Positions 8,366-43,071 of a stretch of 64,000 nt of DNA are shown here, one piece after another. How positions within the stretch are numbered: position 1 is the stretch's first letter; the number at the start of each line of letters is the position of its first letter. A program made the position numbers and the translations under genes. The notes beneath the pieces are model-generated. The model had not been told where the DNA came from. It saw only the letters and a program-made list of their open reading frames with translations, and did no database searches. The stretch comes from Pseudonocardiaceae bacterium (GTDB lineage Bacteria; Actinomycetota; Actinomycetes; Mycobacteriales; Pseudonocardiaceae), in assembly GCA_009379815.1 (NCBI GenBank), contig WHSY01000007.1, forward strand, positions 1 through 64,000. Reading direction: 5' to 3'.

Positions 8366-9520
8366 GTGGACTTCCGGGAGACCACCGAGCACCGCGCGCT
8401 GCGCGAGACCGTGGCGGCGATCGCCGGCCGCTTCGGCGGTGGCTACTACGCCGAGCGGGCGCAGGCCCGGCAGCCCTGCACGGAGCTGTGGCAGGCCCTG
8501 GGGCAGGGTGGCTACATCGGGATCAACATCCCGGAGGAGTACGGCGGCGGCGGTGCCGGGTTGCTCGAGCTCACCATGGTCTGCGAGGAGGTCAGCACGC
8601 AGGGTTGCCCGCTGCTGCTGCTCCTGGTCTCCAGCGCGATCTCAGGGGAGCTCTTGGCTCGGTACGGCACCGACGAGCAGCGCAAGGAGTGGCTGCCGCG
8701 GCTGGCCACCGGGCAGAGCAAGGTCGTCTTCGCCATCACCGAGCCCGACGCCGGCTCGAACACCCACCGGCTGTCGACGACGGCGACCCGAGACGGTGCC
8801 GATTACCTGCTGCGGGGCAGCAAGCACTACATCTCCGGGGTCGACGAGGCGGAGGCGATCCTCGTGGTCACCCGTACCGGCACCGACGAGACCACCGGCG
8901 CGGCCCGGCTGTCGCTGTTCGTCGTCCCGACCGACGCGCCCGGGCTGGTGCGCACCCCGCTGCCGGTCGACGTGATGCTGCCCGAGCGCCAGTTCGTGCT
9001 GCATTTCGACGACGTGCGGGTCGGGCCCGGCGCGCTGGTCGGCATCGAGGGTGAGGGGTTCGCACAGGTCTTCCACGGCCTCAACCCGGAGCGGATCACC
9101 GGCGCCGCGCTCTGCGTCGGCGTCGCCCGCTATGCCCTGGCCAGGGCGGCGGAGTACGCCACGACCCGTGAGGTGTGGGGTGTCCCGGTCGGCAGCCACC
9201 AGGGCGTGTCCCACCCGCTGGCGCAAGCCAAGATCGAGACGGAGCTCGCCGCGCTGATGACCACCAGGGCGGCCTGGTCGCACGACGCCGGGCTGCCCGC
9301 CGGTGAGGCGTCGAACATGGCGAAGTACGCCGCCGCCGAAGCGGCGTTGGCCGCCGTGGACGCCGCGATCCAGACCCACGGTGGTAACGGCCTGGCCACC
9401 GAGTACGGGCTCGTCCCGCTGTGGGGGCTGGCCCGGCTGTTGCGCATCGCCCCGGTGAACCGGGAGATGATCCTCAACTATGTCGCCCAGCACAGCCTGG
9501 GCCTGCCCCGGTCCTACTAG
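8366..9520 (+). CDS. acyl-CoA dehydrogenase (branched-chain / AtuD-like candidate)
   Basis: 384-aa ACAD, first gene of the long run with a CoA carboxylase. GTG at 8366 is set by GGGGAGG 5 nt upstream. FAD motif FAITEPDAGSNTHRL is near residue 125; the C-terminal domain has THGGNGLATEYGLVPLW. As in the ACAD at 707, the MCAD-type Glu is absent (IAPVNREM) and a Glu sits in GLNPERI (residue 242), the isovaleryl-CoA dehydrogenase position. Preceding an MCC/GCC-type carboxylase, a role in desaturating a beta-methyl-branched acyl-CoA such as citronellyl- or isovaleryl-CoA is plausible but unproven. Confidence 0.93.
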   Translation: MDFRETTEHRALRETVAAIAGRFGGGYYAERAQARQPCTELWQALGQGGYIGINIPEEYGGGGAGLLELTMVCEEVSTQGCPLLLLLVSSAISGELLARYGTDEQRKEWLPRLATGQSKVVFAITEPDAGSNTHRLSTTATRDGADYLLRGSKHYISGVDEAEAILVVTRTGTDETTGAARLSLFVVPTDAPGLVRTPLPVDVMLPERQFVLHFDDVRVGPGALVGIEGEGFAQVFHGLNPERITGAALCVGVARYALARAAEYATTREVWGVPVGSHQGVSHPLAQAKIETELAALMTTRAAWSHDAGLPAGEASNMAKYAAAEAALAAVDAAIQTHGGNGLATEYGLVPLWGLARLLRIAPVNREMILNYVAQHSLGLPRSY

Positions 9521-9533
9521 CCCAGCCCTATCA

Positions 9534-9625
9534 GCCGTGAAGGGCACCTTCACTGCCTCCGACGCACTGAAGGTGCCCTTCACGGCAACTGAACCGACGC
9601 GAACTGCAGTGAAGGTGCCCTTCAC
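9534..9625. repeat. GTGAAGGGCACCTTCAC hairpin cluster
   Basis: GTGAAGGGCACCTTCAC at 9537-9553 is followed by two reverse-complement copies, at 9567-9583 (first base differs) and 9609-9625. The first two form a perfect 19-bp stem: GCCGTGAAGGGCACCTTCA (9534-9552) with its complement at 9568-9586, 15-nt loop. It sits between the ACAD and ligase genes. Related sequence recurs at 24781-24975 and, more decayed, near 21464 and 35271. It may attenuate or end transcription; no U-tract is present. Confidence 0.75.
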
Positions 9626-9651
9626 GGCAACCGAACGGAAGGGAGCCGGCG

Positions 9652-11238
9652 ATGACGTCCTCGGAGCTGGCCGACAACCTCATCCACCGGGTCAACGTGG
9701 GTGACTCGCTGACCCGCACGGCCGCGCGCCACCCGGATCGCATCGCGGTGGTCGACGACGGCCGCCGGTTGCGCTACCGGGAGCTCAACGGCTGGGTCAA
9801 CCGGGTGGCACACGGTCTGGCACAGCGCGGCTACGGCCGCGCGGACGCGCTTGCGCTCGCCTCGGGAAACAGCGTCGAGTTCCTGGTCGTCTACTACGCC
9901 TGCGCCAAGCTCGGCGTGGTGTGCGTCCCGATCAACCTCGGCTGGCGGCCCGACGAGGTCCGCTACGTTCTCGAGCACTCCGGGGCGCGCGGCATCGTCA
10001 TCGAGACCCAGCTGCTCGACACCTTCGGTGACGCGGTGGCGGCCGTGCCCGGGGTGCGCGAGGTTATCGTCGCGCCCGGCACCGGTGGCGACCCCGGCGG
10101 CCACACCACTCTCGACGAGATCCCCACCGGCGACCCGGACGGCGAGCCCGAGTACCTCGTGCAGGACCGCGACCCGATCAGCTACCTCTACACCAGCGGC
10201 ACCACCTCGGCCCCCAAGGCAGTGGTCGGCAACCACACCGCGATCTACCTCGAGTCGATGACGATGGCGCTCGAGGCCAAGTTCGACTCCGACGACCGGT
10301 TCGTCGCGATGCTGCCGATGTTCCACACCGCGCAGCTCAACTGCCACTGCACACCGGCGATCATGGTCGGGGCCACGATCCACGTGGTGCGCGCCTTCGA
10401 TCCCGGGCAGCTGCTCGAGCTGATCGAAACGGAGTCCATCACCCAGATCTTCGGGCTGCCGATGATGTACCGGGCGATGCTCGACCACCCCGACCTGGCC
10501 CGCTGCGACGTCTCCTCGCTGCGCCGCGCCTGCTATGCGATGGCTCCGATGCCCGACAAGCAGCTCCGCGAGGCGATCGAGCGCTTCGACTGTGACTTCT
10601 ACCTGCTGTTCGGCCAGACCGAGATGAGCCCGACCACGACGATGTTCCGTCCCGAGCACCAACTGTCGCACTCCGGGGCGGTGGGCACCCCGGTGGTCAA
10701 CATCGCGCTCGGGATCATGAGTCAGGACGGGACGCTGCTGGGCCAGGGCGAGCAGGGCGAGATCGTCTACCGCGGCCCGCACACGATGACCGAGTACCTG
10801 CGCGATCCCGAGGCCACCGAGACCGTCTTCGCCCACGGCTGGTTCCACTCCGGCGATGCCGGCTACGTCGATGCCGACGGCGTGCTGTGGTTCACCGACC
10901 GGTTCAAGGACGTGATCAAGACCGGCGGCGAGAACGTCGCCTCGATCGAGGTCGAGAAGGCGGTCTACGCCGCGGACTCCCGGGTCGCCGAGGCCGTCGT
11001 CATCGGCTTGCGACACGAGCGGTGGAGCGAGGCGATCACCGCGGTCGTCGTGCCGCAGCCCGGCGAGACGATCGACGAGGCCGGATTGCTGGCCGCCGTC
11101 AAGCGCCACCTCGATCCCTACAAGGTGCCCAAGGCCGTCATCGTCGCCGACGAGCTGCCCAAGACGTCCACCGGGAAGATCCAGAAGAACAAGCTGCGCA
11201 GCCGATTCGAGCACCATTACGCACCGGAGGCCCGGTGA
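9652..11238 (+). CDS. acyl-CoA ligase (AMP-forming), AtuH-like candidate
   Basis: 528-aa ligase. Motifs: YTSGTTSAPKAVVGNH (near residue 180), LFGQTEMSPTT, HSGDAGYVDADG, TDRFKDVIKTGGENVAS and STGKIQKNK at the C-terminus. ATG at 9652 follows GAAGGGAG. The stop overlaps the GTG of the carboxyltransferase gene (GTGA), so the ligase and the carboxylase beta subunit are translationally coupled. By context it should activate the acid whose CoA ester is dehydrogenated by the ACAD at 8366 and then carboxylated. Confidence 0.95.
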   Translation: MTSSELADNLIHRVNVGDSLTRTAARHPDRIAVVDDGRRLRYRELNGWVNRVAHGLAQRGYGRADALALASGNSVEFLVVYYACAKLGVVCVPINLGWRPDEVRYVLEHSGARGIVIETQLLDTFGDAVAAVPGVREVIVAPGTGGDPGGHTTLDEIPTGDPDGEPEYLVQDRDPISYLYTSGTTSAPKAVVGNHTAIYLESMTMALEAKFDSDDRFVAMLPMFHTAQLNCHCTPAIMVGATIHVVRAFDPGQLLELIETESITQIFGLPMMYRAMLDHPDLARCDVSSLRRACYAMAPMPDKQLREAIERFDCDFYLLFGQTEMSPTTTMFRPEHQLSHSGAVGTPVVNIALGIMSQDGTLLGQGEQGEIVYRGPHTMTEYLRDPEATETVFAHGWFHSGDAGYVDADGVLWFTDRFKDVIKTGGENVASIEVEKAVYAADSRVAEAVVIGLRHERWSEAITAVVVPQPGETIDEAGLLAAVKRHLDPYKVPKAVIVADELPKTSTGKIQKNKLRSRFEHHYAPEAR

Positions 11239-12833
11239 GCACGATCAAGTCCACACTGGACACCACCGGCGAGATCTACCAAACCAATCGCGCGGCGTCG
11301 CTGGCCGTGCTCGACGACCTCGCCGAGCAGCTCGCGGCCGCCCGCGCCGGCGGCGGGCAGCGTTACGTCGACCGGCACCGGCAGCGCGGCCGGCTGCCGG
11401 TCCGCGAGCGCATCGAGCTGCTGCTCGACCGCGACGCCCCGTTCCTCGAGCTGTCCACATTGGCGGCATGGGGCAGCGAGTTCACCGTGGGCGCGAGCCT
11501 GGTCACGGGCATCGGCGTGGTGTCCGGTGTGGAGTGCGTGCTCATCGCCCACGACCCCACGGTCCGCGGCGGTGCGATGAACCCGTACTCGCTACGCAAG
11601 ACGCTGCGGGCTCTGGAGATCGCCCGCACCAACCGGCTCCCGGTGATCAACCTGGTGGAGTCCGGCGGCGCGGACCTGCCCACGCAGTCCGAGCTGTTCG
11701 TGCACGCCGGCAAGATCTTCCACGACCTCACCGAGCTGTCCGCGATGGGCATCCCGACCGTCGCGCTGGTGTTCGGAAACTCCACCGCGGGCGGGGCCTA
11801 CGTGCCCGGGATGTGCGACTACTCGGTGCTCGTCGACCAGCAGGCCAAGGTCTTCCTGGGGGGACCGCCGCTGGTGAAGATGGCCACCGGGGAGGACGCC
11901 GACGACGAGGCGCTCGGCGGCGCCGACATGCATTCGCGCGTGTCGGGCCTGTCGGACCACTTCGCCGTCGACGAGCGCGACTGCATCCGGATCGGGCGGC
12001 GGATCGTCGCCGAGACGCACTGGCGCAAGCTCGGGCCCGGCCCGACCCTGCCGGCCGACGAGCCGCGCTACGACCCCGACGAGCTGCTCGGCATCGCCCC
12101 TGCCGACATCCGGGTGCCCTTCGACCCCCGCGACGTGCTGGCCCGGGTGGTGGACGGGTCGCGGTTCGGGGAGTACAAGCCGGGCTACGGCACGAGCCTG
12201 GTCACCGGCTGGGCCTCGGTGCACGGCTTCCCGGTCGGAGTGCTGGCCAACGCACGCGGGGTGCTGTTCTCGGAGGAGTCGCGCAAGGCCAGCGAGTTCA
12301 TCCTGCTGGCCAACCAGACCGACACACCACTGGTGTTCCTGCAGAACACCACCGGCTACATGGTCGGCGCGGCCTACGAGCAGGGCGGGATCATCAAGGA
12401 CGGTGCCAAGATGATCAACGCGGTCACCAACAGCACCGTGCCACATATCACGATCAACACCGCGGCCTCGTTCGGAGCGGGGAACTACGGCATGTCCGGG
12501 CGGGCCTACGAGCCGCGGCTGATGTTCGCCTGGCCGGGTGCCAAGCTCGCGGTGATGGGCGCGCAGCAGCTCGCCGGGGTGATGTCCATCGTGGGCAAGG
12601 CGGCAGCGGAGTCGGCCGGGCGGGAGTTCGACCAGGCGGCCGACGACGAACGGCGCCGGGGGATCGAGGAGCAGATCGAGCGGGAGTCACACTCGTTCTT
12701 CGTCACCGCCCGGCTCTACGACGACGGGATCATCGATCCGCGCGATACCCGGACGGTGCTCGGCATGGCGCTGTCCGCCGCGCACTCGGGCCGGGTCGAG
12801 GGGCGCCGCGGCTTCGGCGTCTTCCGGATGTGA
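11235..12833 (+). CDS. acyl-CoA carboxylase, carboxyltransferase (beta) subunit, MCC/GCC type
   Basis: 532 aa. Transfers CO2 from carboxybiotin to an enoyl-CoA. Motifs place it in the methylcrotonyl-/geranyl-CoA carboxylase branch, not the propionyl/acetyl branch: NSTAGGAYVPGM, FLGGPPLVKMATGE, LGGADMHSRVSGLSDH and SFGAGNYGMSGRAYEPR match MCC-type beta subunits, whereas PCC-type subunits read ITGPDVVKSVT in the equivalent place. GTG at 11235 overlaps the ligase stop. The biotin carboxylase follows after 49 bp. MCC versus GCC cannot be decided by eye; a Phe/Gly difference at the acyl pocket (PaMCC-beta Phe191) would tell. Confidence 0.93.
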   Translation: MSTIKSTLDTTGEIYQTNRAASLAVLDDLAEQLAAARAGGGQRYVDRHRQRGRLPVRERIELLLDRDAPFLELSTLAAWGSEFTVGASLVTGIGVVSGVECVLIAHDPTVRGGAMNPYSLRKTLRALEIARTNRLPVINLVESGGADLPTQSELFVHAGKIFHDLTELSAMGIPTVALVFGNSTAGGAYVPGMCDYSVLVDQQAKVFLGGPPLVKMATGEDADDEALGGADMHSRVSGLSDHFAVDERDCIRIGRRIVAETHWRKLGPGPTLPADEPRYDPDELLGIAPADIRVPFDPRDVLARVVDGSRFGEYKPGYGTSLVTGWASVHGFPVGVLANARGVLFSEESRKASEFILLANQTDTPLVFLQNTTGYMVGAAYEQGGIIKDGAKMINAVTNSTVPHITINTAASFGAGNYGMSGRAYEPRLMFAWPGAKLAVMGAQQLAGVMSIVGKAAAESAGREFDQAADDERRRGIEEQIERESHSFFVTARLYDDGIIDPRDTRTVLGMALSAAHSGRVEGRRGFGVFRM

Positions 12834-12882
12834 ACTCACGGGGGCTTCGCCCCCGTGTACCCCCGAACTGCGAGGGACACAG

Positions 12883-14895
12883 GTGATCAGAAAGCTGCTC
12901 GTTGCGAATCGTGGCGAGATCGCGTCGCGGGTCATCCGCACCGCCCGGGAGTGTGACATCGCCACCGTCGCGATGTTCTCCGATCCGGACGCCGACGCCC
13001 CGTTCGTGACCGAGGCCGACGAGGCGGTCGCACTGCCCGGCGCCGGCCCGGCCGACACCTACCTGCGCGCCGACCTGCTCGTCGCGGCCGCGCTGGCCAC
13101 CGGCGCCGACGCGGTACACCCTGGTTACGGGTTCCTCGCCGAGAACGCCGGCTTCGCCCGCGCCTGCGCCGAGGCGGGGCTGGTGTTCGTCGGGCCACCG
13201 GCAGCGGCGATCGAGTCGATGGGCTCGAAGATCACCGCCAAGGAGCTGATGTCGCGCGCCGGGGTGCCGGTGCTGCCCGGGGTCACCGTCGAGCCGTCCG
13301 ACGACCTGGCCGCCGCGGCCGCGTCGGTGGGCTTCCCGTTGCTGGTCAAGGCCTCTTTCGGCGGCGGCGGGCGCGGGATGCGGATCGTGCGGGCACCTGA
13401 CGAGCTGGCCGAGGCGGTGGCTGCTGCCCGGCGCGAGGCGGCGTCGGCGTTCGGTGACGGCACCGTCTTCCTGGAGCGCTACCTCACCGACCCGCGGCAC
13501 GTCGAGGTGCAGATCTTCGGTGACACCCACGGCACCGTGGTGCACCTGCACGAGCGGGAGTGCTCCATCCAGCGGCGGTACCAGAAGATCATCGAAGAGG
13601 CGCCGTCTCCTGCGGTCGACGGGTCACTGCGGGCCGAACTGGGCGCCGCGGCGGTCGCCGCAGGCAAGGCCATCGGCTACGTCGGCGCCGGCACCGTGGA
13701 GTTCGTGCTCGACGAGGCGTCCGGGTCCTTCTTCTTCCTCGAGGTCAACACCCGGCTGCAGGTCGAACACCCCGTCACCGAGCTCGTCACCGGGCTGGAC
13801 CTGGTGGCACTGCAGCTGCGCCTCGCCGACGGACAGCCGCTGCCGGAGCAGGCGACCACCGCAACGATCAATGGCCATGCCGTCGAGGCCCGGCTCTACG
13901 CCGAGGACGTGGCCGCCGGGTTCCTGCCGGCCAGCGGCACCCTCGCGCGGTTCTCGATCCCCGGGATTCCCGGTGTCCGGGTCGATGCGGGCGTCATGGA
14001 CGGCTCGGTGGTCAGCCCGCACTACGACCCGATGCTCGCCAAGGTCATCGCGCACGGCGCCACCCGCGACGAGGCCTGCCGCCGGCTGGCCCGTGCACTG
14101 GCCGAGGCGCAGCTGCACGGCGTGACCACCAACCGCGACCTGCTCGTCGGGGTGCTGCGCGAGCCCGGGTTCCGGGCCGGCCACACCGACACCGGCTACC
14201 TGACCCGCCACGACCCGGTGGCGCTCGGTGCGCCGCCTGCCGGCTCCGCGGTGGTCGGGCTGCACGCCGTCGCGGCCGCGTTGGCCGACCAGGCGGCCCG
14301 CCGCGCGCACGCCCCGGTGCTGGCGACGCTGCCCTCGGGCTGGCGCAACGTGCCCAGCGAGCACCAGCACGCCGTCTTCGCCCACGGTGACGAGCACATC
14401 GAGGTCCGCTACGCGCTCGTGAGTGGCGATGCGAGCCATGGCTCGCATCGCCACTCACGAGCTGTCCGGGCCGAGATCGACGGTGTCGCCCTGGACGGTG
14501 TGGCGGCGCGGCAACTGACCCCGGAGCGGGTGGACCTCGATGTGGCCGGGGTGCGGCGATCGATCCGGGTGCACCGTGTCGACGAGGTGGCCTATGTGGA
14601 CAGCGCGCTCGGCGCGACGACGCTGGTCGAGCTGCCCCGGTTCCCCGAACCCGGGACGTCGACACCGCCGGGGTCGCTGCTGGCCCCGATGCCCGGGACG
14701 GTGGTACGGGTCGCGGTCAGCGCGGGCGAGCACGTCGCCGCCGGTGCGGCGGTGGTCGTGCTCGAGGCGATGAAGATGGAGCACACCGTGTCTGCCCCGC
14801 ACGACGGGGTCGTCAGCGAGGTCAACACCGAGGTGGGCCGCACGGTCGACACCGGCACCGTGCTGGCCGTCGTCGATGAAGAGGAGGGGGAGTGA
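12883..14895 (+). CDS. acyl-CoA carboxylase, biotin carboxylase + BCCP (alpha) subunit
   Basis: 670-aa alpha subunit. The biotin carboxylase part covers about residues 1-450 (start LLVANRGEIASRVIRTA, ATP-grasp loop GGGGRGM near 160, EVNTRLQVEHPVTE at 287). A linking BT-type region follows, then a C-terminal biotinyl domain with EAMKMEHT, biotinylated Lys631. GTG at 12883 begins MIRKLLVANRGE. Residues 511-527 are encoded by a perfect 48-bp palindrome (14415-14462) that looks like an inserted repeat, read in frame. Partner of the beta subunit at 11235; together they carboxylate an enoyl-CoA such as methylcrotonyl- or geranyl-CoA. Confidence 0.95.
   Translation: MIRKLLVANRGEIASRVIRTARECDIATVAMFSDPDADAPFVTEADEAVALPGAGPADTYLRADLLVAAALATGADAVHPGYGFLAENAGFARACAEAGLVFVGPPAAAIESMGSKITAKELMSRAGVPVLPGVTVEPSDDLAAAAASVGFPLLVKASFGGGGRGMRIVRAPDELAEAVAAARREAASAFGDGTVFLERYLTDPRHVEVQIFGDTHGTVVHLHERECSIQRRYQKIIEEAPSPAVDGSLRAELGAAAVAAGKAIGYVGAGTVEFVLDEASGSFFFLEVNTRLQVEHPVTELVTGLDLVALQLRLADGQPLPEQATTATINGHAVEARLYAEDVAAGFLPASGTLARFSIPGIPGVRVDAGVMDGSVVSPHYDPMLAKVIAHGATRDEACRRLARALAEAQLHGVTTNRDLLVGVLREPGFRAGHTDTGYLTRHDPVALGAPPAGSAVVGLHAVAAALADQAARRAHAPVLATLPSGWRNVPSEHQHAVFAHGDEHIEVRYALVSGDASHGSHRHSRAVRAEIDGVALDGVAARQLTPERVDLDVAGVRRSIRVHRVDEVAYVDSALGATTLVELPRFPEPGTSTPPGSLLAPMPGTVVRVAVSAGEHVAAGAAVVVLEAMKMEHTVSAPHDGVVSEVNTEVGRTVDTGTVLAVVDEEEGE
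14415..14462. repeat. perfect 48-bp palindrome inside the biotin carboxylase gene
   Basis: Every base from 14415 pairs with its mirror up to 14462, with the centre at CCATGG (14436-14441); each arm is 24 nt and there is no spacer. Outer arm begins GCTCGTGAGTGGCGATGCGA. Its length is 16 codons, so it does not break the frame and adds a Ser/His/Gly-rich segment. A degenerate copy lies between genes at 54394-54446, so this is a dispersed repeat that entered, or was born in, a coding region. Confidence 0.9.
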
Positions 14896-14908
14896 CCGAG
14901 TCGGTCGT

Positions 14909-14925
14909 GACCCCGTTTCGGAACC
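14909..14925. repeat. dispersed repeat, reverse complement of 526-542
   Basis: GACCCCGTTTCGGAACC is the exact reverse complement of 526-542, and weaker similarity (GGGGTTC-rich) extends about 20 bp further. It lies in the 94-bp gap after the biotin carboxylase gene. Both places follow gene ends. Confidence 0.5.
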
Positions 14926-14989
14926 AGATGGGGGTTCAGGGGTCGGCTGCGATGCCGTTTCGCTACGCATCTGAGAGGAGGGACGCGCC

Positions 14990-15751
14990 GTGACCGCGGT
15001 GCGCTACGAGATCGACAACGGGGTGGCCTGGCTGACCATCGACCGGCCGGAGGCGCGCAACGCCCTCAACCAGGCGGTCCGCGACGGGCTGCACGACGGC
15101 GTGGCGCGGTTCAACGGCGACGACGAGGCGAAGGTCCTGGTGCTCACCGGCGCGGGGGACAGGGCCTTCTGCGCCGGCGGTGACCTCAAGGAGATGGCCG
15201 ACACCACATTGCGGGTGCCGCCGCCGGACTTCGTGCCGCAGTTCGGCCGCACCGTCGAGGTCCCGAAGCCGACGATCGCGGCCGTCAACGGTGTCGCCTA
15301 CGCCGGGGGGTTCCTGCTCGCGCAGATGTGCGACCTGTGCATCGCGGCCGACACCGCGCGGTTCGCGATCACCGAGGTGAAGGTGGGGCGCGGGGCGCCC
15401 TGGGCCGCGCCGCTGCCGTGGCTGATCCCGCCCCGCATCGCCATGCAGATCCTGCTCACCGGCGACCCGATCATGGCGCACCGCGCGTACGAGGTCGGGC
15501 TGATCAACGAGGTGGTGGCGCCCGGCGAGCTGGCGGCGACGGCGCAGGCGCTGGGCGAGCGGATCGCCGCGAACGCGCCGCTGTCGGTGCGCGCGGCGAA
15601 GCGCACCGCCTACCTCGCCGCGCACCACCCGCTGTCCGATGCCTACGAGCAGGCCGAACGGATCTGGGAACCCGTCTACCTCAGCGAGGACGCCCAGGAG
15701 GGCCCTGCGGCGTTCCGGGACAAGCGCACCCCCCGATGGAAAGCACGCTAG
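14990..15751 (+). CDS. crotonase / enoyl-CoA hydratase family protein (AtuE-like candidate)
   Basis: 253 aa, GTG start behind GAGAGGAGGGA. Crotonase landmarks: LTIDRPEARNALN, GAGDRAFCAGGDLKEM, NGVAYAGGFLLAQMCDL. The first catalytic Glu position is Leu, but a Glu is kept at the second (ITEVKVGRGAPWA). Standing directly behind the MCC/GCC-type carboxylase, it is the natural candidate to hydrate the glutaconyl-CoA product, as MCC is followed by methylglutaconyl-CoA hydratase and AtuF/AtuC by AtuE. No HMG-CoA lyase homologue is seen nearby. Single-Glu crotonases can be hydratases or isomerases, so the role is inferred. Confidence 0.9.
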   Translation: MTAVRYEIDNGVAWLTIDRPEARNALNQAVRDGLHDGVARFNGDDEAKVLVLTGAGDRAFCAGGDLKEMADTTLRVPPPDFVPQFGRTVEVPKPTIAAVNGVAYAGGFLLAQMCDLCIAADTARFAITEVKVGRGAPWAAPLPWLIPPRIAMQILLTGDPIMAHRAYEVGLINEVVAPGELAATAQALGERIAANAPLSVRAAKRTAYLAAHHPLSDAYEQAERIWEPVYLSEDAQEGPAAFRDKRTPRWKAR

Positions 15752-15781
15752 CCAATGGAAGCACGCTGGAAGGGCCGTGAG

Positions 15782-16591
15782 ATGGCGCCGACGATGTCCG
15801 AGCTGCTGACCGACCTGGTCGACGAGACACTGGTGGTCGACGAGATGCTCACCCCACTCGACGACGCTGCCTGGGAGCGGCCGACCCCTGCCGAGGGGTG
15901 GCGGATCCGTGACCAGGTCAGCCACCTGGCCTACTTCGACGAGACCGCGGCGCTGTCCGCGACCGACCCCGACCGGTTCCGGGCGGGGGCCGAGGCGCTG
16001 GCCGGCCGGGGCGACCGGTTCACCGACGAGATCGCCGACGAGTACCGCGCGCTGCCCCCGGCGCAGCTGCGGGAGTGGTTCCGCACCGCGCGGCGTTCGT
16101 TGGTCGAGACCTTCGCCGCCGTGGACCCCGCTACGCGGCTGCCGTGGTACGGGCCGCCGATGAGCGCGGCGTCGTCGATCACGGCGCGGTTGATGGAGAC
16201 CTGGGCGCACGGCCAGGACATCGCCGACGCGCTCGGCGTCGAGCGCGAGCCGACGGCCCGGCTGCGCCACGTCGCCCACATCGGGGTCCGGACCTTCTCG
16301 TTCGCCTTCGGGTTGCACGGCCGACCGGTGCCGGAGACACCGGTGCGGGTGGAGCTGTCCGCGCCCGACGGTACGACCTGGACCTGGGGATCCGAGGACG
16401 ACACGGCCACCGCCGACACCGTCCGTGGCCCGGCGCTCGACTTCTGCCTCGTGGTGACCCAGCGCCGCCACCTGCTCGACACCGGGCTGCAGGTCACCGG
16501 GGACGTCGCAGCGGAGTGGATGTCGCTGGCGCAAGCCTTCGCCGGCCCACCCGGGCCGGGCCGGGCACCCAGCAGGGAGGTGACGAGATGA
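15782..16591 (+). CDS. TIGR03084-family DinB/mycothiol-type metal-binding protein
   Basis: 269 aa. The four-helix N-terminal domain has WERPTPAEGWRIRDQVSHLAYFDE and WAHGQDIADALG, with the His residues expected for divalent metal in the DinB/mycothiol maleylpyruvate isomerase superfamily. It is followed by an SCP2-like tail. ATG at 15782 is chosen because GGAAGGG stands before it; an in-frame ATG at 15755 has no ribosome-binding site. Its stop overlaps the ATG of the AtuA-like gene (ATGA). The pairing suggests a joint function; reaction unknown, thiol-dependent isomerisation or transfer possible. Confidence 0.88.
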   Translation: MAPTMSELLTDLVDETLVVDEMLTPLDDAAWERPTPAEGWRIRDQVSHLAYFDETAALSATDPDRFRAGAEALAGRGDRFTDEIADEYRALPPAQLREWFRTARRSLVETFAAVDPATRLPWYGPPMSAASSITARLMETWAHGQDIADALGVEREPTARLRHVAHIGVRTFSFAFGLHGRPVPETPVRVELSAPDGTTWTWGSEDDTATADTVRGPALDFCLVVTQRRHLLDTGLQVTGDVAAEWMSLAQAFAGPPGPGRAPSREVTR

Positions 16592-18360
16592 CCGCACGTC
16601 CGGTACGGATCGGCAACTGCTCGGGGTTCTACGGCGACCGGGTCGCCGCGGCCCGCGAGATGGTCGAGGGCGGCCCGATCGACGTCCTGACCGGCGACTA
16701 CCTCGCCGAGCTGACCATGCTGATCCTGTGGAAGGCCCGGCAGAAGGACCCTTCGACCGGGTATGCCAGGACGTTCCTGCAGCAGCTCGAGGAGGTGCTG
16801 GGCAGCTGCCTGGAGCGGGGCGTCAAGGTGGTCAGCAACGCCGGCGGGCTCAACCCGTCCGGGCTGGTCGAGCAGATCCAGCAGCTGGCCGACCGGCTCG
16901 GGCTCGCCCCCCGGATCGCCTGCGTGACCGGCGACGACCTGGTCGATCGGCTCGACGAGCTGCAGGCCGCGGGCATCGACCTGGCCAATCTCGACACCGG
17001 GCAGCCGCTGGCCGAGGCCGGGCACAAGCCGGTCTCGGCCAACGCCTACCTCGGCGGGTGGGGCATCGCCGAGGCGCTGGGCGCGGGCGCCGACATCGTG
17101 GTGTGCGGTCGGGTGACCGATGCGTCGCTGGTGGTCGGCCCGGCCGCCTGGTGGCACGGCTGGCAGCGCGCGGACTGGGACGCGCTGGCCGGCGCGGTCG
17201 TCGCCGGGCACGTCATCGAGTGCGGCCCGCAGGCCACCGGCGGCAACTACTCGCACCTGTCGGAGATCACCGACCGCCGCTACCCGGGCTTCCCGATCGC
17301 CGAGGTCGACGCCGGCGGCAGCACCGTGATCACCAAGCACCCCGAGACCGGCGGGCTGGTCTCGCCCGGCACCGTGACCGCGCAGCTGCTCTACGAGATC
17401 GACCGCCCCGCCTACGCCAACCCCGACGTGGTGGCCCGGTTCGACACCGTGCAGCTGACCCAGGACGCCCCGGACCGGGTGCGGATCTCCGGGACCCGCG
17501 GCGCGCCACCGCCCGACGCCCTCAAGGTCGCGCTCAACCACCTCGGTGGCTACCGCAACACGATGACGCTGGTGCTCACCGGCCTGGACATCGAGGCCAA
17601 GGCCGCCTGGGCCGAGCAGCAGCTGTTCGACATCCTCGGCGGCAAGGACCGCTTCGCCGAGACCGACGTGCGGCTGCTGCGCTTCGACCAGCCCGACGCG
17701 CCCAGCAACGAGCAGGCCACCGCCCACCTGCGGATCACGGTGAAGGACGCCGACCCGCGCACAGTGGGCCGGGCGTTCTCCAACGCGACGATGGAGCTCG
17801 CGCTCGGCGGCTACCCGGGCTTTCACACCACCACTCCGCCGACGCCGGAGAGCGCCTACGGCGTGTACTGGCCCGCGCTGGTTCCGGCCGGCGTGGTCGA
17901 GCACGTGGTGACGCTGCCGGACGGCTCCCACCGGACCGTCCCGCACAGCCCCACCGGGCCCGCACCGGACATCGAACCTCCGCCGGTCGAAGCCGTGACG
18001 CCGGAGGGCTCGACCGAGCGGATTCCGCTGGGTCGGGTATGCGGCGCGCGGTCCGGGGACAAGGGCGGCAACGCCAACGTCGGGCTGTGGGCGGACTCGG
18101 CGGCCGGGTTCGCCTGGCTGCGCGAGTACCTCACCGCCGAGCGGCTCCGGGAGCTGCTGCCCGAGGCTGCGCAGCTGCCCGTGCACCGCTACGAGCTGCC
18201 CAACCTGAACGCGCTGAACTTCGTGGTCGCCGGGCTGCTCGGTGACGGGGTCGCCTCGGCGACCCGGCCCGATCCGCAAGCCAAGGGGCTCGGGGAGTAC
18301 CTGCGCTCCCGCCACGTCGACGTCCCCACGGCACTGCTCGAGGAGGAGGAGGGATCGTGA
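16588..18360 (+). CDS. acyclic terpene utilisation AtuA-like protein (DUF1446)
   Basis: 590 aa. The DUF1446/AtuA core begins RIGNCSGFYGDRVAAAREMVEGGPIDV-like with LTGDYLAELTM and VVSNAGGLNPSG, and ends with a separate C-terminal domain (VCGARSGDKGGNANVGLW ... LPNLNALNFVVAGLL) typical of full-length AtuA proteins. AtuA is required for citronellol and geraniol use in Pseudomonas, but its reaction is not established; a part in the step after carboxylation and hydration has been proposed. Overlaps both neighbours by 4 bp (TIGR03084 gene upstream, ligase downstream), so it is embedded in one operon with the MCC/GCC-type carboxylase. Confidence 0.93.
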   Translation: MTARPVRIGNCSGFYGDRVAAAREMVEGGPIDVLTGDYLAELTMLILWKARQKDPSTGYARTFLQQLEEVLGSCLERGVKVVSNAGGLNPSGLVEQIQQLADRLGLAPRIACVTGDDLVDRLDELQAAGIDLANLDTGQPLAEAGHKPVSANAYLGGWGIAEALGAGADIVVCGRVTDASLVVGPAAWWHGWQRADWDALAGAVVAGHVIECGPQATGGNYSHLSEITDRRYPGFPIAEVDAGGSTVITKHPETGGLVSPGTVTAQLLYEIDRPAYANPDVVARFDTVQLTQDAPDRVRISGTRGAPPPDALKVALNHLGGYRNTMTLVLTGLDIEAKAAWAEQQLFDILGGKDRFAETDVRLLRFDQPDAPSNEQATAHLRITVKDADPRTVGRAFSNATMELALGGYPGFHTTTPPTPESAYGVYWPALVPAGVVEHVVTLPDGSHRTVPHSPTGPAPDIEPPPVEAVTPEGSTERIPLGRVCGARSGDKGGNANVGLWADSAAGFAWLREYLTAERLRELLPEAAQLPVHRYELPNLNALNFVVAGLLGDGVASATRPDPQAKGLGEYLRSRHVDVPTALLEEEEGS

Positions 18361-19913
18361 CCGCCGACCTGGTGGCGGGGGCGTCCGGCGCCACGATCGG
18401 CGAGGTGTTCGGACGGGCTTTCCGGTTGTACGCCGATCGGGTCGCGGTGACGTCGGAACACGGCCGGTGGACCTACCGCGAGCTGGGGCAGCGGGTGGAC
18501 TCGCTGGCCACGGCCGTCACCGAGCTGGGCCTGACCAGGGGTGATCGGGTCGCGGTCCTCAGTGAGACCCGGCCGGAGTACGTCGAGACCTACGCCGCGC
18601 TGGCCCGCCTCGGCGTGACGGTGGTCGCGCTGAACATCCGGCTGCACACCGATGAGCTCGCCTACTGCGTCGAGCGCGCGAAGCCCATCGCCTTGTTGGT
18701 CTCGGGCGGGCTCGCCGGGCAGGCCACCTCGTTGCGCGACCGGGCGCCCTCGATCGAGCACTGGGTGTGCTTCGACCCCGCCGAGGGCTTCGCCGACTAC
18801 TCCGCCCTGCTGGCGTCGGCCACGGGGCCACCGCCCGTGGTCGACGTGCAGCCAGGCGACCTGCACAACGTGCTCTACACCAGCGGTACCACCGGCCGCC
18901 CCAAGGGGGCGATGATCACCCAGGGCGCCGCGGCCGTCCGCGGGCTGCGGCTGGCACAATGGTTCCGGCTCACCGAGGATGACGGGTTCATCGGGTGGCT
19001 GCCGCTGTTCCACTGCGGCGGTGACGAGTCGCTCTACGCCACCATGCTCACCGGCGGCACCTACGCCACGTTGCGCAAGGCCGACGCCGAGACCATGTTC
19101 CGGATGATCGAACGGGACCGGCTCAGCTGGACGCTGCTGCTGCCTGGCGTCCTCACCGACTTCCTGCACCACCCGCGCCGGGCCGACCACGACCTGTCCA
19201 CGCTGCGGTTCGCGATCGGGTACGCGAACATGATGCCGGGCGTCGTCGAGCAGCTGACCACCAGCTGCGGCATCGACTTCTCCGACGCCTTCGGCCAGAC
19301 CGAGACCAGCTACCTGCTCGCGCACGGCTGGTGCCACCCCGGTGAGACCCCGAGCCTGCGTAAGATGCCGACACCGCTGCTGGACGTCCGGCTGGTTGAC
19401 GGCAACGGCGACGAGGTCGGCGTCGGGCGGCCCGGGGAGTGCGTGGTGCGTGGCCCGAGCGTGATGTCCGGCTACCTCGACGACCCCGAGGCCACCGCCG
19501 AGGTGTTCGCCGGTGGCTGGCTGCACACCGGTGACGTGCTGGCACGCGGCGAGGACGGCACGCTGACCTTCGTCGATCGGGCGAAGTACCTGATCAAGAC
19601 CGGTGGCGAGAACGTCTACCCGGCCGAGGTGGAGCTCGCCATCGCCGGCCACGACGCCGTGCAGGAGGCCTGCGTGTTCGGGGTGCCCGACGAGCACTGG
19701 GGTGAGGCGGTCAAGGCGGTCGTCGTCCGTCGCCCGGACCGGCAGGTCACCGGGGAGGAGATCGTCTCGTGGTGCCGCGAGCGGCTTGCCGGCTACAAGC
19801 GGCCCCGCTACGTGCAGTTCCTCACCGAGGAGGAGCTGCCGCGCAGCGCGACCGGTAAGCTGCAGCGCCACGAGCTGGCCGCTCGCGGGGTGACCGACGG
19901 CGAGCGGGTGTGA
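18357..19913 (+). CDS. acyl-CoA ligase (AMP-forming)
   Basis: 518 aa. Motifs: YTSGTTGRPKGAMIT, AFGQTETSYLLAHG, HTGDVLARGEDG, VDRAKYLIKTGGENVYPAEVE and ATGKLQRHE. GTG at 18357 overlaps the AtuA-like stop and is preceded by GAGGAGGAGGG. Second ligase in the carboxylase operon; it may activate a different chain length or a pathway intermediate released as free acid. Confidence 0.95.
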   Translation: MTADLVAGASGATIGEVFGRAFRLYADRVAVTSEHGRWTYRELGQRVDSLATAVTELGLTRGDRVAVLSETRPEYVETYAALARLGVTVVALNIRLHTDELAYCVERAKPIALLVSGGLAGQATSLRDRAPSIEHWVCFDPAEGFADYSALLASATGPPPVVDVQPGDLHNVLYTSGTTGRPKGAMITQGAAAVRGLRLAQWFRLTEDDGFIGWLPLFHCGGDESLYATMLTGGTYATLRKADAETMFRMIERDRLSWTLLLPGVLTDFLHHPRRADHDLSTLRFAIGYANMMPGVVEQLTTSCGIDFSDAFGQTETSYLLAHGWCHPGETPSLRKMPTPLLDVRLVDGNGDEVGVGRPGECVVRGPSVMSGYLDDPEATAEVFAGGWLHTGDVLARGEDGTLTFVDRAKYLIKTGGENVYPAEVELAIAGHDAVQEACVFGVPDEHWGEAVKAVVVRRPDRQVTGEEIVSWCRERLAGYKRPRYVQFLTEEELPRSATGKLQRHELAARGVTDGERV

Positions 19914-19919
19914 GCGGCG

Positions 19920-20729
19920 ATGAGCGAGATCGCCAGCCGGGACGAGGGACCGGTCCGCATCCTGGCCCTCGACCGGCCGGACCGGCTCAACGCCATGACG
20001 CCGTCGACGGTGGCCGCGCTCGAGGATCAGCTCCGGGCCGCTGAGGCCGAGTCCGGGGTCGGCGCGGTGGTCCTCACCGGTGTCGGGCAGCACTTCTCGG
20101 CAGGCGGGGACGCGCACGCCATCCTCGACGTCGTCGCGGACACCGACGAGGGCGCGCCACTGCGCCTGATGCGGGCGTTTCACCGCCTGATCGAGGCGGT
20201 GTGGGACTCGGAACTGCCCGTCATCGCCGCCGTGAGCGGGGTGGCCTACGGCGGCGGGTTCAACCTCGCCCTGGCCTGTGACCTGGTGGCGTGCTCGGCC
20301 GACACGCGGCTGTGCCAGGTGTTCCTGCGTCGCGGCCTGGTGCCCGACGTCGGCGGCGCGTACCTGCTGCCCCGGCTGGTGGGCATGCAGCGGGCCAAGG
20401 AGCTGATGCTGCTGACCCCCGAGATCGACGGGCAGCGTGCCTACGACCTGGGGCTGGTCAACGCCGTGGTCGCCGACGCCGAGACGGCCCGTGCCCGCGC
20501 CGTGGAGTGGGCGACGCAGCTCGCCGACGGCCCCCGGTTCGCGGTGTCGCTGACCAAGAAGCTGGTCAACGGGAGCGCCACCGGCGACCTGCACTCCTCG
20601 CTGGAGCTGGAGGCCGTGTCCCAGACCGCCGCGTTGCGCGGCCGCGCCGCCCGGGAGGGTTTCGAGCAGTTCCTCCATCGGGATGCCTCGGGATCGGAAA
20701 CCACCTCCGGGACGGGCACGCCGCCGTGA
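19920..20729 (+). CDS. crotonase / enoyl-CoA hydratase family protein
   Basis: 269 aa, starting 6 bp after the ligase stop. Landmarks LALDRPDRLNAM, GVGQHFSAGGDAHAI and SGVAYGGGFNLALACDL are intact. The positions of both canonical catalytic Glu residues hold other residues (Asn, and Phe/Leu in VFLRRGLVPDVGG), so hydration by the textbook mechanism is unlikely; the LRRGLVPD segment resembles enoyl-CoA isomerase or 2-(1,2-epoxy)acyl-CoA isomerase-type proteins. The stop overlaps the TetR GTG. Confidence 0.9.
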   Translation: MSEIASRDEGPVRILALDRPDRLNAMTPSTVAALEDQLRAAEAESGVGAVVLTGVGQHFSAGGDAHAILDVVADTDEGAPLRLMRAFHRLIEAVWDSELPVIAAVSGVAYGGGFNLALACDLVACSADTRLCQVFLRRGLVPDVGGAYLLPRLVGMQRAKELMLLTPEIDGQRAYDLGLVNAVVADAETARARAVEWATQLADGPRFAVSLTKKLVNGSATGDLHSSLELEAVSQTAALRGRAAREGFEQFLHRDASGSETTSGTGTPP

Positions 20730-21349
20730 GCGGACCAGCGCGCCATCGTGACCCCGCCCGCAAGGAGCGGATCCTGGCGGCGGCCGCCGAGCTGGTCGCC
20801 CGGCGGGGCTTCCACGCGGTGAGCATGGCCGAGATCGGTGCGGCGGCCGGCATCGTCGGGTCGGGAATCTACCGGCACTTCGACAGCAAGGTCGCGATCC
20901 TGGCCGCCCTGCTGGATCGTGTGATGGAGCGGCTGCTGCGCAACGCCACGCGCCTCGTGCAGGAGCTGCCGGGTGACCGGTCCGCACTGGCTGCCCTGAT
21001 CAGCGACCAGATCGTTTTCGTGATCGACGACCGGCGGCTGGTCCAGGTCTACCAGCGGGAGATCCACAACCTGCCGGACGAGGATCGGCGGCGGCTGCGT
21101 CGGAAGCAGCGCCACTACATCGAGGAGTGGGTGCACGTGGTGGTCGGGCTGCGGCCGGACCTCTCCGACGTCGAAGCACGCACCGCCGTGCACGCCGCGA
21201 TCGGCGCGATCCAGTCAGTGGCCTACTTCCACAGCGGACTTCCCAGGGAGCGGCTCGTCGTCCTGCTCGCCGATGCGGCGCATGCCTGTCTGGGACTGCC
21301 TGCGTCGCCCCCGAGCAGGTCGGAGCTGTCCAGCGCACCCGGGGCGTGA
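20726..21349 (+). CDS. TetR-family regulator
   Basis: 207 aa. N-terminal helix-turn-helix: RKERILAAAAELVARRGF, then SMAEIGAAAGIVGSGIYRHFDSK (about residues 12-60); the C-terminal domain is the variable ligand-binding part. GTG at 20726 overlaps the crotonase stop (GTGA). As the last gene of the run that starts at 8366, it probably controls this operon with an acyl-CoA as inducer (inference). No operator can be assigned from the sequence. Confidence 0.92.
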   Translation: MSGPARHRDPARKERILAAAAELVARRGFHAVSMAEIGAAAGIVGSGIYRHFDSKVAILAALLDRVMERLLRNATRLVQELPGDRSALAALISDQIVFVIDDRRLVQVYQREIHNLPDEDRRRLRRKQRHYIEEWVHVVVGLRPDLSDVEARTAVHAAIGAIQSVAYFHSGLPRERLVVLLADAAHACLGLPASPPSRSELSSAPGA

Positions 21350-21568: not shown

Positions 21569-22732
21569 TCACCTGCCCCAGAGTTCGCGACTGGCCAGGT
21601 CGGCACCCTCGCGCATCGCGCGCAGCTTCGCCCAGGCCACGGTCGGCGCCACCATCGTCCAGCCCGCGAACGTGCCGAAGCCGCAATCCGTACCGGCGAT
21701 CACCCGGCTCCGGTCGCCGACGGCCGCCACGGCACGCAGGATGCGCTCCGAGACCACCTCGGGATGCTCGACGATGTTCGTCTTCGAATCGATCACGCCG
21801 GGAATGAGCACCATCGAGTCCGGGAGCGGGTGTTGCTCGAACGCCTTGTACTCGTGGTAATGGCGCGGATTGGCGAGCTCGAGCGAGAGGGCTCCGACGT
21901 TGGCCTGATACAGAATCGGGAGGAGATCCGCCAGCTCGACGTCGCTGTCGTGGGGACCGTCCCAGTTTCCCCAGCACACGTGCAGCCGAATGGACTCGGG
22001 CGGGACGTTCTCGACCGCCTGGTTGATCGCGTCGATATGAGTTTCGACCACCTCGAGGAAGCGGGAGGTGGGGTCGTCCTTGAAGAGCCCGACGCGCTCC
22101 ATGGCGAGATCCGGACAATCGAGCTGGAGCAGGAAACCCTGGGAGTGGATGAGTTCGTACTCCTTGCGCAACTCCCGTGCCACCGCCCGCACGTAACTCT
22201 CGTGCGAGTCGTAGTAGGCGTTGAGCATGGTCGTCGCGACGATGCCGGGCGCCGCTGACGTCATGAAGCGGTCACGGTAGCGCCCCTGCTCTCCGTCGCT
22301 GGCGCGACGGAACAGCGCGCACTCCGCTTCGGCTTCACTGAGATCGGCGTACTCGACCTCGGCCACGGCCTCCGGGGCGTCGAACACCTTCGAGGTGGTC
22401 CAGCCCCGGCTGAACCACAACTCGGCATAGTCGGGGTAGCGCACGAAATCCGCGAAGGCCGGGCGCGAGCTGGCCCCGCCGAAGCCTTTCATCCGCATCG
22501 GCACGTAGGTCTGGAAGCCGACCCGCGGCTGCTCCCCGTCGTTGATGACGTCCACGCCGGACGCGATCTGCTGGTCGATCACGTGCTCGACGCCGGCACT
22601 CACGACCCGGTCGAGCTCACCCTCGGCGACCTGCTCGCCGCGTTCCTTGCGGATCATCAGGTCTTCGAGCTCGGCGCTGCGTGGCAGGCTGCCGGTGTGG
22701 GTGGTGAGGATGCGGTCCTCGCTGCGTTCCAT
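21569..22732 (-). CDS. cobalamin-independent methionine synthase (MetE C-terminal)-like protein
   Basis: 387 aa, the catalytic barrel only; a full MetE is about 750 aa. The zinc ligands of MetE are matched: His251 and Cys253 (LHVCWGN), Glu285 (SLELANPRH) and Cys350 (GTDCGFGTF), as in E. coli His641, Cys643, Glu665 and Cys726. Such short proteins include methyl- or alkyl-transferases to thiols, among them epoxyalkane:CoM transferases. ATG at 22732 is chosen with GGAG before it. It stands 28 bp after the SCO6745-like gene, in one operon. Either B12-independent methyl transfer or thiol addition to an electrophile is possible. Confidence 0.88.
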   Translation of the reverse strand: MERSEDRILTTHTGSLPRSAELEDLMIRKERGEQVAEGELDRVVSAGVEHVIDQQIASGVDVINDGEQPRVGFQTYVPMRMKGFGGASSRPAFADFVRYPDYAELWFSRGWTTSKVFDAPEAVAEVEYADLSEAEAECALFRRASDGEQGRYRDRFMTSAAPGIVATTMLNAYYDSHESYVRAVARELRKEYELIHSQGFLLQLDCPDLAMERVGLFKDDPTSRFLEVVETHIDAINQAVENVPPESIRLHVCWGNWDGPHDSDVELADLLPILYQANVGALSLELANPRHYHEYKAFEQHPLPDSMVLIPGVIDSKTNIVEHPEVVSERILRAVAAVGDRSRVIAGTDCGFGTFAGWTMVAPTVAWAKLRAMREGADLASRELWGR

Positions 22733-22760
22733 CGCGCGCTCCGATCTGCGGCACTCGGGT

Positions 22761-23648
22761 TCACCCGGCCAGGTCGTGCGGCCCTGACGCGGGGTAACCG
22801 CCAGCCTGCCGGATCGCGGCCCCCCACGGGGAGAGGATGCTGAGGAGTTCGTCGAGATCGTCGCCGAGTGCGTCGACGATCGGACGGCATTGCCGGTCGG
22901 TGGCCCGCTCGACCTCTTCCCGCGCGGTCCGTCCCTGCTCGGTGAGGGCACCGTCGGCGAGCAGCCCGCAGTCGGTCAGCCGTGCCTCGGCGGCGTCGAG
23001 GTCCGCGTCGCTCCACGCCCGGGTGCGCACGTAGCTGCGCAGCGCTAGCCCCCAGTACAGCTCGGTCAGCAGCCCGATCTCGACACCGTCGAAGCCGGCG
23101 GCCGTCCAGGACGCGGTGTGCGCATCGCCGCGGTACTCGCGCAGCCGGTCGGCCAGCCGCCAGACGGTCCCGATGGGGTCATCGGGCGGTTCGAGCCCGA
23201 GCAGGCCGGCGTAGAGCGACCGCCCCTCGGGACGCAGCTCGCTGCCGGCGCGTTCGAGCAGCCTCGCGGCCCGGTCGGCTCCCTCGGGTTGGGGCCCGAG
23301 GATGCGGGTGAGCTGGGCGATCGCGCCGGCGTCGCGGGCGGCGCAGATGGTGGCGGCGTCGGTCAGCGTCCAGCCATGGGTGACCGCGGACACCACGACC
23401 GCCGGATTGAACACGGCGAACGCGGCCGCCACGACCTGGCCCGGCACCTGCCCGAGCAGCGATCCCCGGCTGCAGAAGTAGGCGGGCCCGTCCGGGAGTG
23501 CGACCGAGCGGGCGGTCTTCGGGCTCGGCGCGAAGCCGAGTTCCTGGTACGCGTCGTGGCACTCGGGCGCGAAGTACACCTGTGCGGCGAGGGGTTCGAC
23601 GGCTGCGGCCACCGCCCTGGCCCGGGAACCGTTCTTGGCGTCGGTCAT
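22761..23648 (-). CDS. SCO6745-family protein
   Basis: 295 aa, soluble, no signal peptide. It matches from memory the actinobacterial SCO6745 family: an N-terminal VYFAPECHDAYQELGF segment, the mid segment YFCSRGSLLGQVPGQVVAAAFAVFNPAVV, then a helical half ending in a winged-helix-like region (LTDCGLLADGALTEQGR). Function is not known. ATG at 23648 follows AAGGAGAC. A reading frame that stops at ATGA on this start codon (23645-23842) lies upstream, and the MetE-like gene follows, so this is the middle of a minus-strand transcript. Confidence 0.8.
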   Translation of the reverse strand: MTDAKNGSRARAVAAAVEPLAAQVYFAPECHDAYQELGFAPSPKTARSVALPDGPAYFCSRGSLLGQVPGQVVAAAFAVFNPAVVVSAVTHGWTLTDAATICAARDAGAIAQLTRILGPQPEGADRAARLLERAGSELRPEGRSLYAGLLGLEPPDDPIGTVWRLADRLREYRGDAHTASWTAAGFDGVEIGLLTELYWGLALRSYVRTRAWSDADLDAAEARLTDCGLLADGALTEQGRTAREEVERATDRQCRPIVDALGDDLDELLSILSPWGAAIRQAGGYPASGPHDLAG

Positions 23649-43065: not shown

Positions 43066-43071
43066 GGCATC

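Follow-up and report, generated by a model that had tools for sequence, protein, structure and literature searches.

The stretch of DNA analysed here, called the window below, comprises positions 1 to 64,000 of contig WHSY01000007.1 from a Pseudonocardiaceae bacterium (assembly GCA_009379815.1; 5.44 Mb in 733 contigs, 97% complete). Between positions 8366 and 21349 its plus strand carries ten head-to-tail genes, all in the families named in a preliminary description of the DNA. They form an operon which is real and widely conserved, and which is like the acyclic terpene utilization (Atu) cluster of Pseudomonas in its logic, with a carboxylase that descends from a third clade. The first gene encodes an acyl-CoA dehydrogenase (ACAD; 8366-9520; PF00441/PF02771/PF02770) with a predicted AtuD-like role as former of a 2-enoyl-CoA, and the second an AMP-forming acyl-CoA ligase with a putative AtuH-like role (FadDa; 9652-11238; PF00501/PF13193). 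The two carboxylase subunits follow, namely a beta subunit or carboxyltransferase of the AccD2 clade (CT; 11235-12833), which matches PDB structures of both 3-methylcrotonyl-CoA carboxylase (MCC; 3u9r) and geranyl-CoA carboxylase (GCC; 5ikl), and an alpha subunit with biotin carboxylase, BT and biotin carrier domains (BC; 12883-14895; PF00289, PF02786, PF02785, PF21139 BT_MCC_alpha and PF00364) and the biotin site AMKM at residue 629. Next come crotonase 1 (ECH1; 14990-15751; PF00378), a predicted 3-alkylglutaconyl-CoA hydratase with an AtuE-like role, a TIGR03084 protein of MDMPI_N/DinB fold (15755-16591; 348.2 bits against a cut-off of 247.95), predicted to be a mycothiol-dependent cis/trans isomerase, and AtuA with a fused C-terminal ferredoxin-like domain (16588-18360; PF07287 at 577.7 bits, and PF23544), a predicted carboxylate-releasing lyase. 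The operon closes with a further AMP-forming acyl-CoA ligase (FadDb; 18357-19913; PF00501), crotonase 2 (ECH2; 19920-20729; PF00378) and a TetR-family regulator (20726-21349; PF00440 and PF17932) that resembles the SACE_7040 model NF050111 below its cut-off (169.5 against 250).

Adjacent genes overlap by 4 bp at four junctions (FadDa/CT, TIGR03084/AtuA, AtuA/FadDb and ECH2/TetR), bearing out the many such overlaps reported beforehand, and the remaining junctions are gaps of 3, 6, 49, 94 and 131 bp. The beta-subunit motif GGPPLVKMATGE is present in the CT as described. An alternative frame for this subunit (11468-12886) was rejected as a shadow open reading frame with no family match. No 3-hydroxy-3-methylglutaryl-CoA (HMG-CoA) lyase is found among the operon genes, as had also been claimed. 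A chance origin of the gene set is excluded by the E-values and by its recurrence at many independent loci. The preliminary description had overlooked a member of the conserved neighbourhood, the AMP-forming acyl-CoA ligase FadDc (6426-8090, minus strand; PF00501/PF13193), which is divergent from the operon; of 74 related loci, 31 have a ligase of the same family close by or in divergent orientation.

AtuA has one copy only in the source genome and occurs in 91 of 150 genomes of the same order. When the neighbourhoods of 60 AtuA loci of the order and of several named plasmids were compared, they fell mostly into two types. Type A, that of the window, comprises ACAD, FadDa, CT, BC, (FadDb, ECH2), ECH1, TIGR03084, AtuA and TetR in varying order, and type B has the order (TIGR03084)-AtuA-ACAD-CT-BC-ACAD-ECH. 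The scan of named genomes turned up 80 loci of type A, in Pseudonocardia, Actinomycetospora, Amycolatopsis, Labedaea, Saccharopolyspora, Klenkia, Frankia, Streptomyces, Embleya, Nocardioides, Nocardia, Mycobacterium and others, and the operon recurs in Rhodococcus as well. It is hence widespread rather than confined to the source genome, and public annotation already puts the gene names of AtuA and TIGR03084 side by side. Among 59 type A loci with full flanks the most constant companions are TIGR03084 (54), AtuA (51), the ACAD ortholog (49) and crotonase 1 (46). TetR (35/59) and FadDa (28/59) are less constant, and FadDb and ECH2 are so rare (6/59 and 9/59, respectively) that we regard them as accessory. 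Mycobacterial type A loci carry instead two SnoaL-like proteins, another ligase, an aldehyde dehydrogenase, a flavin reductase, LuxR regulators and a nitronate-monooxygenase-like protein. CTs with 82-83% identity to that of the window also appear on two contigs labelled Melainabacteria and Acidobacteria (L142 and L187), which are probably mis-binned. The Streptomyces genes SCO4380-4386 were looked up as a possible relative and could not be tied to the operon by sequence.

GCC differs from MCC in that a Gly replaces Phe191 of the Pseudomonas MCC (PaMCC) and a three-residue insert just before it is missing (PMC4673880). In the alignment of this pocket PaMCC reads VFPDREHFGRIF, the Pseudomonas GCC (PaGCC) reads IFVE---GARGF and the window CT reads LFVH---AGKIF, so that Ala158 stands at the Phe191 position and the MCC insert is absent. 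Among CTs reached through their neighbouring AtuA genes, the residue is Ala in all of type A and Gly in all clear members of type B. The named loci give 77 Ala and 3 Gly in 80, a count that is partly circular because HAGKIFHD, one of the scan patterns, covers the pocket residue; the AtuA-reached set is the unbiased evidence. Several genomes, among them M. aurum, Amycolatopsis sp. 2-2 and G041, carry both type A and type B, and since their pocket residues also differ, the two types probably differ in substrate.

A maximum-likelihood tree of 54 CTs places the AtuA-associated CTs with their kin in a single clade of 43 sequences (support 100/98), and the grouping of types A and B within it is likewise supported at 100/98. 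This AccD2-type clade lies outside the MCC clade (89/99) and adjoins PaGCC together with a GCC-like CT from Achromobacter (96/86). As judged by sequence, the carboxyltransferase is thus a member of a third clade, AccD2, and not an MCC. A third group of AtuA-associated CTs (L089, L101 and L091), adjoining TIGR03084, is 52-54% identical to the window CT and has an extra loop exactly at the pocket segment; its substrate may differ again.

The source genome also encodes a true MCC, separate from the operon. Its third CT (C199:43830) has a perfect MCC motif (PRQDEVFPDREHFGRIF), and is 48% identical to the window CT. An HMG-CoA lyase above cut-off lies on another contig than the operon (C8:8859-9674). 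The search for another MCC and for an HMG-CoA lyase, suggested at the outset, thus had a positive outcome. A few kb from this leucine-type MCC lies a type B CT/BC pair without AtuA (C199:37934-39523; L017 9932-11509, minus strand), and between the two are a 4-hydroxybutyrate-CoA-ligase-like gene and a TetR gene of the SACE_7040 family above cut-off.

A search of the PDB with the single AtuA sequence found no homolog. An AlphaFold2 model was built from 43 window and locus sequences (mean predicted local distance difference test score, pLDDT, of 93.4). Its best match is chain A of 9evf, a structure of citramalate lyase in complex with ADP and pyruvate (E 1.3e-18; template modelling score, TM, of 0.73 on the target). 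Chain B of the same entry, a small subunit of 105 residues, is matched too (TM 0.75 on the target), and the C-terminal domain of AtuA is presumably the part that accounts for this. A profile search found 9erq_A (E 6.7e-5), which its depositors label 'Acyclic terpene utilization AtuA family protein | Citramalate lyase, subunit A (cmlA)'. The citramalate lyase CmlA/CmlB (9erq, 9evf) thus shares the folds of the large AtuA domain and of the ferredoxin-like domain, but it consists of two separate subunits rather than one fused chain, is only about 16% identical and differs in substrate, that of AtuA being predicted to be a CoA ester. A split form, of about 448 and 112 residues, is also found for AtuA of the archaeon Natrinema. 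Citramalate lyase splits its substrate into acetate and pyruvate, a reaction of the type that the release of a carboxymethyl group would require, and on this ground the model suggests that AtuA is probably an acetate-releasing lyase; this would explain why the operon lacks an HMG-CoA lyase. Our initial label of AtuA as a protein of unknown function was replaced after the match to 9evf and 9erq. In two further contexts, on the Pseudonocardia plasmid pBCI1-2 (L112) and in Microvirga (L113), AtuA lies near crotonase, CoA-transferase and TRAP or tripartite tricarboxylate transporter genes and no biotin carboxylase is present, a setting that would suit a citramalate-lyase-like role.

Of the 107 AtuA loci in the order, 46 have TIGR03084 directly upstream of AtuA on the same strand and 57 have it no more than 6 kb away. 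As an association, this upholds the earlier view of the protein as a new component. However, 64 of 121 TIGR03084 loci lie away from AtuA, and exclusivity to AtuA operons is ruled out. Four mycobacterial type A loci (L186, L188, L206 and L207) keep CT-BC-TIGR03084-ACAD and are missing AtuA and crotonase 1, and the single AtuA of each such genome lies at another place, which in M. palustre and strain M26 is a type B operon. As TIGR03084 stays with CT-BC at these loci, its association appears to be with the carboxylase no less than with AtuA. All 28 TIGR03084 sequences compared keep His57, Glu148 and His152, an arrangement of His and Glu-x3-His that corresponds to the metal triad in mycothiol-dependent maleylpyruvate isomerase. 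The first match of the AlphaFold2 model (pLDDT 91.9) is this isomerase, in the form of its H52A mutant 2nsg (E 2.5e-7), and 2nsf matches also. Hence the isomerase (2nsf, 2nsg) shares with TIGR03084 both the MDMPI_N fold and the triad; it differs in that identity is about 16% and in that TIGR03084 has its own NCBIfam model and a context of acyl-CoA carboxylation. The trans isomer of geranyl-CoA is considered unlikely to be accommodated by GCC (PMC4673880). With a carboxylase thought to take only the cis isomer next to a protein of isomerase fold and triad, we propose, as the most speculative step of the pathway, that TIGR03084 may interconvert trans and cis 3-alkyl-2-enoyl-CoA. A literature search on TIGR03084 found no usable paper.

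The type B gene order is that of an M. tuberculosis operon which we take to span Rv0971c-Rv0976c, with Rv0976c presumably the AtuA gene. The content of this operon is echA7, fadE12, accA2, accD2, fadE13 and Rv0976c, and it is induced 20-300 fold in hypoxia and stationary phase (PMC9283954). The type B loci of M. aurum and M. palustre read AtuA-ACAD-CT-BC-ACAD-ECH and have the pocket IFIPGGRMF. According to Ehebauer et al., it is precisely in the RQDEVFPDREHFGRIF segment that AccD2 diverges; M. smegmatis lost growth on isovalerate when accD1-accA1 was deleted, whereas deletion of accD2-accA2 left both this growth and the examined lipids unaffected and its role was left open (PMC4347857). An open pocket throughout the AccD2 clade fits the divergence at this segment. 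The mycobacterial accD2-accA2 loci and their type B relatives (e.g. M. aurum L221 and Tsukamurella L120) have in common with the window the same CT/BC clade, AtuA, ACAD and crotonase, and many relatives outside Mycobacterium proper also have TIGR03084 directly upstream of AtuA. They differ in gene order, which in the window is ACAD-ligase-CT-BC-ECH-TIGR03084-AtuA, in the pocket residue, and in having no ligase in the operon, where the window has several; their CTs are about 63-69% identical to that of the window.

One of the nearest known systems is atuABCDEFGH of Pseudomonas, with which the window operon shares the families of AtuA, both carboxylase subunits (alpha and beta), ACAD, crotonase, ligase and TetR; the Pseudomonas cluster likewise has no HMG-CoA lyase. 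The Achromobacter operon with the GCC-like CT has the same five core families as both. The window operon differs from Pseudomonas atu in its AccD2-clade CT with a pocket Ala, in the addition of TIGR03084, further ligases and a second crotonase, and in the absence of short-chain dehydrogenases/reductases (SDRs) of the AtuB/AtuG type.

Ordinary beta-oxidation stops at an alkyl branch on the beta carbon. From the observed gene content, conservation, pocket residue, clade and predicted folds we infer that the operon probably encodes a dedicated actinobacterial route for acids branched in this way. FadDa, and also FadDb and FadDc, would form the CoA ester, and ACAD would convert it to the 3-alkyl-2-enoyl-CoA. 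In what is the weakest link of the scheme, TIGR03084 with mycothiol and a metal ion may then set the cis geometry needed by the carboxylase, which would put CO2 on the gamma carbon of the branch. Crotonase 1 would hydrate the resulting 3-alkylglutaconyl-CoA, and AtuA, as a fused CmlA-CmlB-like lyase, would cleave off the newly formed carboxymethyl group as a free acid (acetate in the case of a methyl branch), leaving a 3-oxoacyl-CoA for thiolysis. Regulation would fall to TetR. The substrate is probably bulkier than 3-methylcrotonyl-CoA, and an acyclic isoprenoid acid, favoured by the homology to Atu, would be our first guess.

A number of findings weigh against parts of this proposal. The pocket residue is Ala and not the Gly of GCC, and the CT gives higher scores with MCC than with GCC structures. 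An approximately unbiased (AU) test did not reject the alternative in which the AccD2-type clade joins MCC (p=0.127); kinship of the CT clade with GCC is therefore suggested only, and GCC orthology of the window CT is not established, as the test cannot decide it. The earlier term 'MCC/GCC-type carboxylase' accordingly gives way to a third clade. The CT is neither nested among MCCs nor does it have Phe at the pocket, the outcomes that the preliminary description had named as refuting its reading. The likeness of AtuA to citramalate lyase is a fold match at 16% identity, and the citramalate lyase complex holds ADP, hence the AtuA reaction may need a nucleotide. In addition to the many TIGR03084 copies found away from AtuA, the TIGR03084 tree requires ten switches between operon and other contexts, and the Achromobacter GCC-type operon has no TIGR03084, which implies that an isomerase is not universally required. 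Finally, AtuB/AtuG-type SDRs are absent from 8366-21349, the nearest SDRs being at 5518-6273 (minus strand) and 26818-27579 (plus strand). In its most specific form, a TIGR03084 isomerase feeding a cis-only gamma-carboxylase and a citramalate-lyase-type, possibly nucleotide-dependent AtuA in a branched-acid pathway distinct from Atu, the proposal is one that we hold as rather doubtful.

Other readings of the same components were weighed against these data. That the operon is a second pathway for leucine or isovalerate has in its favour the BT_MCC_alpha domain of the alpha subunit, a feature of the holoenzyme family shared with the leucine MCC (liu; AccD1-AccA1), and the fact that the best structure match of the CT is MCC 3u9r at 524 bits, above the GCC structures. 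Against it, the CT lacks Phe191 and the three-residue insert and falls in another clade, the operon has no HMG-CoA lyase, and both an MCC and an HMG-CoA lyase are encoded elsewhere in the genome; the contrasting M. smegmatis deletions point the same way. We rate this reading as highly improbable and have discarded it on the grounds of pocket, clade and the separate MCC and lyase, in line with the preliminary description, which had favoured an Atu-type module over leucine degradation. The HMG-CoA lyase of the source genome enters again in a different reading, in which a bifunctional enzyme of this kind encoded elsewhere, comparable to the bifunctional LiuE of P. aeruginosa cited in PMC9636800, performs the cleavage and AtuA has some other role. 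As the AtuA fold corresponds to citramalate lyase A plus B and AtuA is conserved in most of the type A operons, this seems unlikely to us. More credit, short of an even chance, is due to the suggestion that TIGR03084 is a mycothiol S-transferase or conjugate handler that keeps reactive enoyl-CoA or aldehyde intermediates of the pathway from harming CoA or the cell. Its model does match the M. tuberculosis mycothiol S-transferase 8f5v, and many of its genes lie outside AtuA operons, but this match is further down (E 3.3e-3) than those to the isomerase, and the tight placement just upstream of AtuA at 46 loci also speaks against it.

The substrate could also be a C-24-branched sterol side chain, such as that of sitosterol, far bulkier and subject to the same Atu-type chemistry. 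Mycobacteria carboxylate 24-ethyl sterols at C-28. The sequence of events would be conversion of the 24-alkyl-26-oyl-CoA to the 24(25)-ene, gamma carboxylation at C-28, hydration and removal of the branch. The CT pocket without a blocking Phe would allow this, and several copies of the operon have suggestive neighbours: the Rhodococcus plasmid copies adjoin an mce/YrbE operon, an SCP2 sterol-binding protein and ketosteroid-isomerase-like genes, an M. chubuense plasmid copy lies with a P450, a ferredoxin, a thiolase with its Zn-ribbon OB-fold partner and MaoC hydratases, and mycobacterial copies have SnoaL genes and an aldehyde dehydrogenase. However, neither SnoaL-like nor Mce genes are a specific mark of sterols, the Pseudonocardia copies have no mce/SnoaL block, no steroid genes were recognised around the window operon among the families scanned, and a full-text literature search for a sitosterol carboxylase found none. 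A sterol substrate is improbable in our judgement.

Between ACAD and FadDa, at 9534-9628, a repeat search found three alternating copies, one with a mismatch, of the near-palindrome GTGAAGGGCACCTTCAC. No copies are expected in the window by chance, and two of the five exact copies in the genome are at this site. The repeats may be an attenuator fold or a regulator binding site; an Rfam scan of 5000-26000 gave no match. Downstream of the operon on the opposite strand (21569-23648) are a Meth_synt_2/PRK04326-like methionine-synthase-like protein and an HTH_67 protein. The whole window is rich in acyl-CoA metabolism, with further ligases at 2788, 24990, 31508, 48910, 55900, 57471 and 60061, several ACADs and crotonases, APH/DUF6285 proteins, LLM oxidoreductases and an Opp-type ABC transporter (41467-47009).

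What is new here is the third carboxylase clade with its GCC-like pocket, the link to accD2-accA2, the citramalate lyase fold of AtuA and a testable role for TIGR03084. That acetate is released in terpene degradation by AtuA acting as a lyase is an old conjecture, and the fold match now gives a concrete structural reason for believing it. For M. tuberculosis, the role of accD2-accA2 is narrowed from unexplained to a small set of substrates and reactions that can be tested and, if true, the logic of the pathway proposed here would also assign the Rv0971c-Rv0976c operon.

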